Position numbers and translations under genes: made by a program. Below are positions 39,097 through 40,813 of a DNA stretch of 40,813 bases, one piece after another. How positions within the stretch are numbered: position 1 is the first letter of the stretch; the number at the start of each line of letters is the position of its first letter. Source of the stretch: Treponema denticola (lineage in GTDB: Bacteria; Spirochaetota; Spirochaetia; Treponematales; Breznakiellaceae); assembly GCA_020719845.1 (NCBI GenBank), contig DYPP01000015.1:1-40813 (forward strand), given 5' to 3'. The notes beneath the pieces were generated by a model, which worked only from the letters and a program-made list of their open reading frames with translations, had not been told where the DNA came from and made no database searches.

Positions 39097-40464
39097 TTAT
39101 TGGAACAACTGGGCCATCTGTTGGATGTCATGGCCGCTTAAGGTGTCGGTGGCTTTCTTGAGCTTAAGGTGGTTGATCAGGTACTCGTATCGGGCCTTGG
39201 CATATTCCTGTTTGGTCAGGTAGAGATCGCGTTCGGCATCGAGCACTGCCAAACTGGTGTAGAGACCGGAAAGGAACCCCTCCTGCTTGGCCTCCAGGGC
39301 CGATTGGCTGGAGGCCACCGACTGCTTGAGTGCCTCGACCCGGTTGAGCGCACTCTTGACACCCAGAAAGGCGCTACGGGTTTGCCGCTCCACCGCCATG
39401 GTCTGGCGGATCATCTCCTGATGGGCGCCGCTGCGCTGGTGTTCGGCCTCGGCTACCTTGGAGTTGACCATGCCGCCCTGATAAATAGGTACCGATAGTC
39501 TGAGCATGGCTTTGGTATTGTCAATCTTACTGCCACCGCCATAGAGGGAGCCGTCGGTGTCTTCGCTATTGTAGCTGCCGACCAAGTCGACGGTGGGAAG
39601 GTGGGCGGCACGCTGCCGGTCGATTTCCTTGCCGGCGATATCCACGCTGTGTTTAGCGAGCATGATGGCAGGGTTCTGCTTGACAGCGGCCGTGATCCAG
39701 GCCTCAGCGTCGACGGGATCGGGATTGTTCAGGATAATGTCGGCGCGCAGGGAATCAAGGCCGTCCACCGGTTCGGCCGTCATCTCGCGCAGGGCTTGCA
39801 TGGCATCGTCCAGCAGGCTTTCCGCCTCGATGACGCGGGCGTTAACCAGGGCCTTGCGGGCCTTGGCGTCGTGCATGTCGGTGATGGGGATCAATCCCTT
39901 CTTGAACTGGGTGTCGGCCAACTCGAAGTGTTGGTCGATGGCACCCTGCTCGGCCTTGGCAAAGTGCAACTGATCCTGGGCGGCCAGGGCCTTCATATAC
40001 TGTTCCGCCACCCGCAGGACGAGATCCTGCACCGCGATCTGATACTCGGCCTCGGCACGAAGAATCTCCACCTTAGTGGCTTTGTAGGCGACGATGGAAT
40101 CCCAGTGAAACACCGGCTGCGTCAGGTTGAGGCCGTAATCGCTGCCATCAAAATCGGTGCTGCCGGAGGAAAACACATCGTTGTCAGTACTGCGGATATC
40201 CTGAAAGGTGCGGCTCAGTTCGGCGGTGCCGGTCAGCGAGGGTAGCAGGCGGGCCAACGCCTGAGAGCGATGCTCTTCGATGCTCTGTTTTTTGGACAGC
40301 GCCGCCTGCAGGGCTGGATCATTCTTCTGCGCCAATTGCAAAACATCGATCAATCCAGTGGCGGATACCGTTTGCGATCCAAACACCATACTGCCCATCA
40401 GTGCTAATCCCACCAGTAACCGTTGTTGCCACGTTATATTTTGCCGCCATCGCCCATTATCCAT
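39097..40464 (-). CDS. TolC-family outer-membrane efflux protein
   Basis: A 455-residue trimeric outer-membrane channel subunit forming the outer-membrane exit duct of type I-like secretion. Residues 1-35 are a signal peptide (LLVGLALMGSMVFGSQTVSA|T). The duplicated TolC architecture is visible. The first half has LIDVLQLAQKNDPALQAA, LNLTQPVFHWDSIVAYKA and VQDLVLRVAEQYMKALAAQDQL. The second half has AWITAAVKQNPAIMLAKHSVDIA, LRLSVPIYQGGMVNSKVAEAEHQ and LDAERDLYLTKQEYAKARYEYLINHLKLK. The length is normal for the family. The start at 40464 has GGGAGG about six bases upstream. It is the first gene of the cluster, and the giant gene begins 70 bp after its stop. No terminator is visible between them, so co-transcription is likely. 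Confidence 0.94.
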   Translation of the reverse strand: MDNGRWRQNITWQQRLLVGLALMGSMVFGSQTVSATGLIDVLQLAQKNDPALQAALSKKQSIEEHRSQALARLLPSLTGTAELSRTFQDIRSTDNDVFSSGSTDFDGSDYGLNLTQPVFHWDSIVAYKATKVEILRAEAEYQIAVQDLVLRVAEQYMKALAAQDQLHFAKAEQGAIDQHFELADTQFKKGLIPITDMHDAKARKALVNARVIEAESLLDDAMQALREMTAEPVDGLDSLRADIILNNPDPVDAEAWITAAVKQNPAIMLAKHSVDIAGKEIDRQRAAHLPTVDLVGSYNSEDTDGSLYGGGSKIDNTKAMLRLSVPIYQGGMVNSKVAEAEHQRSGAHQEMIRQTMAVERQTRSAFLGVKSALNRVEALKQSVASSQSALEAKQEGFLSGLYTSLAVLDAERDLYLTKQEYAKARYEYLINHLKLKKATDTLSGHDIQQMAQLFQ

Positions 40465-40602: not shown

Positions 40603-40610
40603 AAGCATTA

Positions 40611-40753
40611 GTAACTGCTCAGGTGGATAGTCTGTAGGTCGCTTTGCCTTTGCAAAGCTGGATAGTCTGTCAGGTAACAACAGGCGGAACTATGGCCCGA
40701 AGGCTTTTACCTAACAGACTAAACACCTACAGACTACTTACCTGAGCAGTTAC
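40611..40753. mobile_element. 143-bp IS66-like MITE with 8-bp target duplication
   Basis: Terminal inverted repeats of 29 bp (40611..40639 and 40725..40753) match at 26 positions and begin GTAACTGCTCAGGT. The same 8 bases, AAGCATTA, flank both ends (40603..40610 and 40754..40761), a target-site duplication. GTAA ends and 8-bp duplications are features of the IS66 family. Inside, TAGTCTGTCAGGTAA (40663..40677) pairs with 40707..40721 with one mismatch, so the element is a nested hairpin. There is no coding capacity, so it would need a transposase supplied in trans. Confidence 0.85.
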
Positions 40754-40813
40754 AAGCATTATACCTAAATCCTGCAATCCTCATTTTGCGACCCAAAATA
40801 GAGCTTGGCAACA

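Follow-up and report, generated by a model that had tools for sequence, protein, structure and literature searches.

What is the short inverted-repeat element that lies just before a giant operon near the end of this contig, which enzyme could have moved it there, and does it matter to the genes behind it? The window analyzed here is the whole stretch of 40,813 nucleotides, assigned to genome G000, and a first-pass annotation had called the element an IS66-type MITE. We find it very probable that this is an IS66-type MITE with S23-like inner repeats, inserted before the operon and likely neutral for it.

Anatomy and setting of the element

The features of the locus are as follows.

40611..40753, no strand: element of 143 bp, read as a non-autonomous IS66 (ISBst12-type) element from its anatomy, family copies and alignments
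40603..40610, plus strand: left copy of the putative target-site duplication, AAGCATTA, a direct repeat; other family members also have perfect 8-bp duplications
40754..40761, plus strand: right copy of the same duplication, AAGCATTA, a direct repeat
40611..40624, plus strand: left 14-bp transposase-type end, GTAACTGCTCAGGT; IS66-adjacent ends match GTAACTRCTCAGGT at 13-14 of 14 positions
40740..40753, minus strand: right 14-bp transposase-type end, GTAACTGCTCAGGT, with the same 13-14/14 match of IS66-adjacent ends to GTAACTRCTCAGGT
40611..40639, plus strand: left arm of the 29-nt terminal inverted repeat, including TAGTCTGTAGGT, from the repeat search
40725..40753, minus strand: right arm of the 29-nt terminal inverted repeat, from the repeat search; similar in L163 and L161
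40656..40677, plus strand: left arm of the inner hairpin, second TAGTCTGT unit, from the repeat search and folding
40707..40728, minus strand: right arm of the inner hairpin, from the repeat search and folding
39097..40464, minus strand: outer-membrane efflux protein (PF02321), the closest ORF to the element; it precedes the giant ORF, which has the same orientation

The anatomy first described for this locus, with 29-bp inverted ends, an 8-bp duplication, a nested hairpin and insertion about 150 bp before the first start codon, is borne out by measurement. The 29-nt arms, both beginning with GTAACTGCTCAGGT, are complementary at 26 of 29 positions (90%), AAGCATTA flanks the element as a perfect 8-bp direct repeat, and the hairpin nested inside has 22-nt arms with 82% complementarity. 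The nearest downstream start codon, that of the efflux-protein ORF on the minus strand, is 146 bases away. The end pattern of the element (20 letters, up to three mismatches) was seen twice against 0.01 expected from shuffled windows, and its minus-strand RNA has a predicted fold of -85.6 kcal/mol versus -40.55 +/- 3.85 for shuffled sequences, none of the 200 shuffles being as stable. The longest ATG reading frame is 17 aa, and the element is non-coding. Being short and non-coding, with inverted ends and a target duplication, it has the features expected of a MITE. The contig ends 52 bases past the right duplication, and sequence farther upstream lies outside it.

Copies of the element and the assigned genome

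The search for other copies that the first-pass annotation proposed was productive outside the assigned genome. An exact-pattern scan of species genomes hit two MAG contigs, from Deltaproteobacteria bacterium RIFOXYD12_FULL_57_12 (G196) and Proteobacteria bacterium (G195). With up to three mismatches, the 29-base end is present 29 times in G196 and 8 times in G195 (reversed control, 0); with up to one mismatch, the 14-base end gives 70 matches in G196 (reversed control, 5) and 17 in G195 (reversed control, 4). Within the phylum of G196, the 29-base end is present in 22 of 395 genomes and its reversed control in none; five of the carriers have 13-35 matches each. The window element aligns end to end with the copy L025 at 68% over 146 columns, and its positions 96-143 match L163 and L161 at 87.5-89.6% identity over 48 nt. 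A BLAST of the element against plasmids and two pattern scans of viral contigs returned no match. An Rfam CRISPR-repeat match just outside the element was sub-threshold (E 2.7) and was taken as noise. One 20-kb stretch of G195 (L124; G195:C151:58000-77500) holds many GTAAC-type ends together with an S23 cassette; locus L005, which overlaps it, includes several small ORFs that may be nucleotidyltransferase-like and HEPN-like.

The multiplicity expected of a MITE is thus found in other genomes and not in G000, whose 252 contigs contain no further copy of the element and no PF03050 (IS66) transposase, both tests being weakened by the misfit of the contig with G000 composition. Among 195 genomes of the family of G000, the only element match is in G000 itself. 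When tetranucleotide profiles were compared, 20 G000 pieces of 7.2 kb (from those other contigs that were long enough, out of 20 contigs sampled) correlated with the pooled rest at 0.848-0.958. Six pieces of the window, some overlapping, correlated at 0.477-0.675 with G000, the highest value (0.675) coming from the part outside the giant gene, at 0.639-0.801 with G196 and at 0.567-0.784 with G195. In this profile the window contig is nearer the deltaproteobacterial MAG G196 than its own bin. The window contig (G000:C24, 1-40813) is probably misbinned, or else represents a large foreign region. As its composition is unlike that of the G000 bin, the absence of copies and of IS66 from that genome says little; a mobile element with many copies can seem unique when its contig is at odds with the bin.

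To examine the flanks, inward-facing ends matching at 12 or more of 14 positions were paired within loci, leaving out L125-L144 (pieces of G000), which gave 48 pairs, 45 of them shorter than 800 bp; 15 of the 48 measure 143-145 bp, the size of the window element. A perfect 8-bp flanking repeat is present in 11 of the 45 pairs, window included, and a match of at least 7/8 in 14, and at widths of 6, 7, 9 and 10 bp perfect repeats number 0, 1, 0 and 0. The target duplication in this family is 8 bp long specifically. The remaining 31 pairs, with fewer than 7/8 flank bases matching, are perhaps old or rearranged copies.

Candidate parent transposases

Members of the IS66 family in general start with GTAA and duplicate 8 bp. 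An IS66 transposase domain (PF03050) is present in 11 of 23 carrier genomes and absent from the other 12, and G196, the carrier richest in matches, yielded no IS66 transposase. At three of 18 IS66 loci (some overlapping), namely L177, L182 and L187 in genomes G320, G385 and G581, an inward end matching at 13-14 of 14 positions follows the transposase frame at a distance of no more than about 150 bp downstream, and the other 15 have no matching end of the counted kind. One of these, L177, is a 2399-bp unit between GCAACTACTCAGGT and GTAACTACTCAGGT with matching ends on both sides and no target duplication, and its transposase contains PF03050, zf-IS66 and DUF6444. A DruA-family ORF (PF14236; L177 131-1018) adjoins this transposase inside the same inverted ends, as if it were a member of the unit. 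At L187 and L182, transposase remnants are followed by GTAACTGCTCAGGT and GTAACTACCCAGGT, respectively. The window end agrees with the L187 end at 14/14 positions and with the right end of L177 at 13/14.

Relatives of the L177 transposase (E <= 1e-30) occur in 13 of 395 genomes, including its own, G320. Five of 17 relative loci (L196, L203, L207, L209 and L210, the last three being copies within one genome) have GTAA-type ends with an 8/8 duplication; the other 12 lack this combination. The L177 transposase also matches 205 plasmid records, and five of seven plasmid elements examined (L213-L217) have GTAA-type ends with 8/8 duplications, as found by a detection script that favored such ends; these include ISGka4 (GTAACTATTCAGCC) and a Planococcus element (GTAACTACTTAGGT twice). 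Single-ORF (ISBst12-type) IS66 transposases are flanked in such elements by GTAACTRYTCAG-like ends and duplications of 8 bp. Several candidates were set aside: at L052 (G195) a stop interrupts the frame and the ends mismatch, and L176 (G235) is an IS66 element with a different end, GTAACTTCTCACGAA. Nor did we count the end at L186, where the IS66 fragment is weak and about 1.5 kb distant, the end at L201, which is inside a coding match, or the flanked pair at L206, whose ends are unrelated.

For ISDge4, of the ISBst12 group, one report gives ends GTGACTACTCAGCA / GTAACTGCTCAGCA, an 8-nt repeat and active transposition (PMC12898284). Since the IS66 loci and ISDge4 have such ends with 8-bp repeats, the ends and duplication length of the window element are of the ISBst12-group type. 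The first-pass annotation had staked its reading on other copies or IS66 relatives with matching termini existing somewhere; copies do exist elsewhere, and some of the IS66 relatives found outside G000 have matching termini and 8-bp duplications. Its label is supported, with the likeness to IS66 confined to the outermost ~12-14 bp and the 8-bp duplication; the next ~20 bp are S23-cassette-like instead. A transposase of this group would bind the outer GTAACTRCTCAGGT and join that end to a staggered target cut, by which 8 bp would become duplicated.

Inner repeats and S23 cassettes

The inner part of the element resembles the borders of L012, a cassette in G195 with an S23 protein gene (PF05635). 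The right end of the window element matches this cassette at 31 of 35 positions, versus 18 of 35 for the L177 IS66 end; past 14 bp (the TAGTCTGTAG part) the counts are 18/21 and 5/21. The family looks hybrid, with IS66-type ends outside and inverted TAGTCTGT repeats like the S23-cassette borders inside, and some of its short members are S23 cassettes that have lost most of the gene.

Among the 45 short pairs, L012 aside, remnants of S23 were found in seven, namely L005, L010, L035, L048, L081, L101 and L172. Interior DNA of the L012 cassette recurs in L172 (85% over 53 nt, including the gene start), which comes from the genome that also holds the L177 parent (G320), and in L005 and L010 (86% over 28 nt), as well as in L046, which has two truncated forms at 94-97% identity. 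S23 protein similarity is present in L035, L048, L081 and L101, and at L048 the flanks form a perfect 8-bp duplication. No S23 remnant or ORF is present in the window copy. Of the 15 copies measuring 143-145 bp, 14 gave no remnant, and neither did L006 or L028. An S23 deletion at L028, suggested by a gapped alignment, was not borne out by BLAST. Matches at L067, L122, L154 and L159 involve the final portion of the S23 protein and were not counted; in L012 the repeat array itself encodes part of the last stretch of this protein. For the window copy, a link to S23 would rest on the shared ends only.

Across G195 and G196 there are 15 PF05635 matches, four of which have an inward end (13-14/14) no more than 200 bp upstream and a 10-13/14 end downstream, against a background of three end matches at 12/14 or better in 31,167 positions; L046 is a fifth, degenerate locus with ends. 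Eight of the ten remaining matches have different short-repeat borders, as judged by eye; among these ten, L047 covers another part of the L043 gene and L050 is without borders. S23 genes at L037-L045 (G195/G196) are edged by short-repeat arrays whose unit varies by locus, L042 being a GTAAC-end cassette, and a scan of the whole L038 locus found no GTAAC-type end. On plasmids, inverted short-repeat arrays border S23 at at least six of nine loci (nine of 21 matching records), and none of the nine has a GTAAC end. A general link between S23 and IS66 is therefore disfavored, and on present data the link is limited to particular lineages. Two cyanobacterial plasmid loci place an S23 gene among CRISPR-type genes: at L218 between cas6 and cas4, with same-orientation short-repeat arrays on both sides, and at L222 between cas10 and a cmr3-type gene, with inverted arrays.

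These data bear on the alternative that the element is an S23/intervening-sequence-type repeat with its own mobility, its likeness to IS66 ends being borrowed or accidental. The closer match of the ends to the S23 cassette than to L177 past 14 bp, the short-repeat arrays that also edge S23 genes without GTAAC ends (in G195/G196 and on plasmids) and the lack of IS66 in the top carrier G196 would all be expected under this alternative. Nevertheless, the 8-bp duplications abut the GTAAC ends exactly, and IS66 transposases are themselves flanked by ends of a similar kind whose duplications have this length, so we consider it unlikely. S23 genes have been proposed to stem from a transposon, and to our knowledge no mover of them has been described.

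Under the IS66-MITE reading, it is possible, though at somewhat less than even chances, that in some deltaproteobacterial lineages S23 genes (23S rRNA intervening-sequence, four-helix-bundle) became cargo of ISBst12-type IS66 transposases by gaining the 14-bp outer end, and that the abundant 143-190-bp miniatures, that of the window included, are gene-deleted remains. We give this proposal lesser weight because, of the 15 family members in the 143-145-bp size class, a single one retains an S23 remnant. Among the literature matches listed, as represented by titles and abstract starts, none joins S23 genes with IS66, and the combination of IS66-type ends with S23-cassette-like repeats does not appear among them. 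The results link a repeat family of wide distribution to a specific group of transposases and offer a testable route for the spread of S23/intervening-sequence genes.

Position before the operon

On the minus strand, the efflux-protein ORF is followed by an ORF of 10,428 aa and then by four ORFs of 247-713 aa with secretion-type domains. The 10,428-aa product is encoded by a single ORF at 7740-39026 (minus strand), and among the further minus-strand ORFs are one for a 660-aa SecA-like ATPase, one with M50 and HlyD matches and one with GAF and HlyD matches.

The first-pass annotation had suggested that the insertion may separate the operon from its upstream controls or supply promoter or hairpin functions, and a stronger form of this idea would have selection maintain the element as a regulatory part, serving the operon as a leader hairpin, a promoter donor or an insulator. 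Its place 146 bases before the nearest start codon and a fold far stabler than shuffles speak for such a role. The suggestion gained no support from the element itself, in which no promoter-like site and at which no terminator-like site was found; the single promoter-like match lies beyond the element, at 40811-40783, and is no more than chance would give (1 versus a shuffle mean of 0.8). In an alignment of 19 copies, changes on both sides are seen at only two of the 18 stem pairs predicted, with a covariation term of -0.12, too scant to support an RNA function of the stem. Copies are also present in many other contexts, and we judge a selected regulatory role to be quite improbable. The simplest view of this intergenic element is an insertion that is probably neutral for the operon.

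That the element is an immobile chance inverted repeat, as its single copy in the assigned genome could suggest, is scarcely credible given the shuffle expectation of 0.01 for its end pattern and the many copies in other genomes with 8-bp duplications.

Comparison with known systems

The S23 (23S rRNA intervening-sequence) genes of PF05635 resemble the window element in their short-repeat borders, most closely in the L012 cassette described above, and some short members of the family are S23-cassette remnants; they differ in that the window copy has no gene remnant and S23 loci mostly have no GTAAC end. In one report, the Coxiella element has heptameric repeats upstream, and old ideas of a transposon origin are mentioned (PMC4990558).

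Among bacterial MITEs, MITEPsy1 is likewise short and non-coding, with inverted ends, a target duplication and dispersed copies. According to one report, the ISPsy2 transposase is its probable mover (PMC3189936), and its 4-nt duplication and other parent set it apart from the window element, with its 8 bp and IS66-type ends. No IS66-derived MITE appears among the literature matches listed, in so far as their titles and abstract starts indicate.

A further comparison is with the ISBst12 group, represented by ISDge4 and ISGka4. Its putative parents carry a single-ORF transposase, whereas the window element is 143 bp without a transposase and, unlike the L177 parent, continues past ~14 bp into TAGTCTGT repeats. 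With this group, the window element shares a GTAACTRYTCAG-like terminus and the 8-bp duplication.
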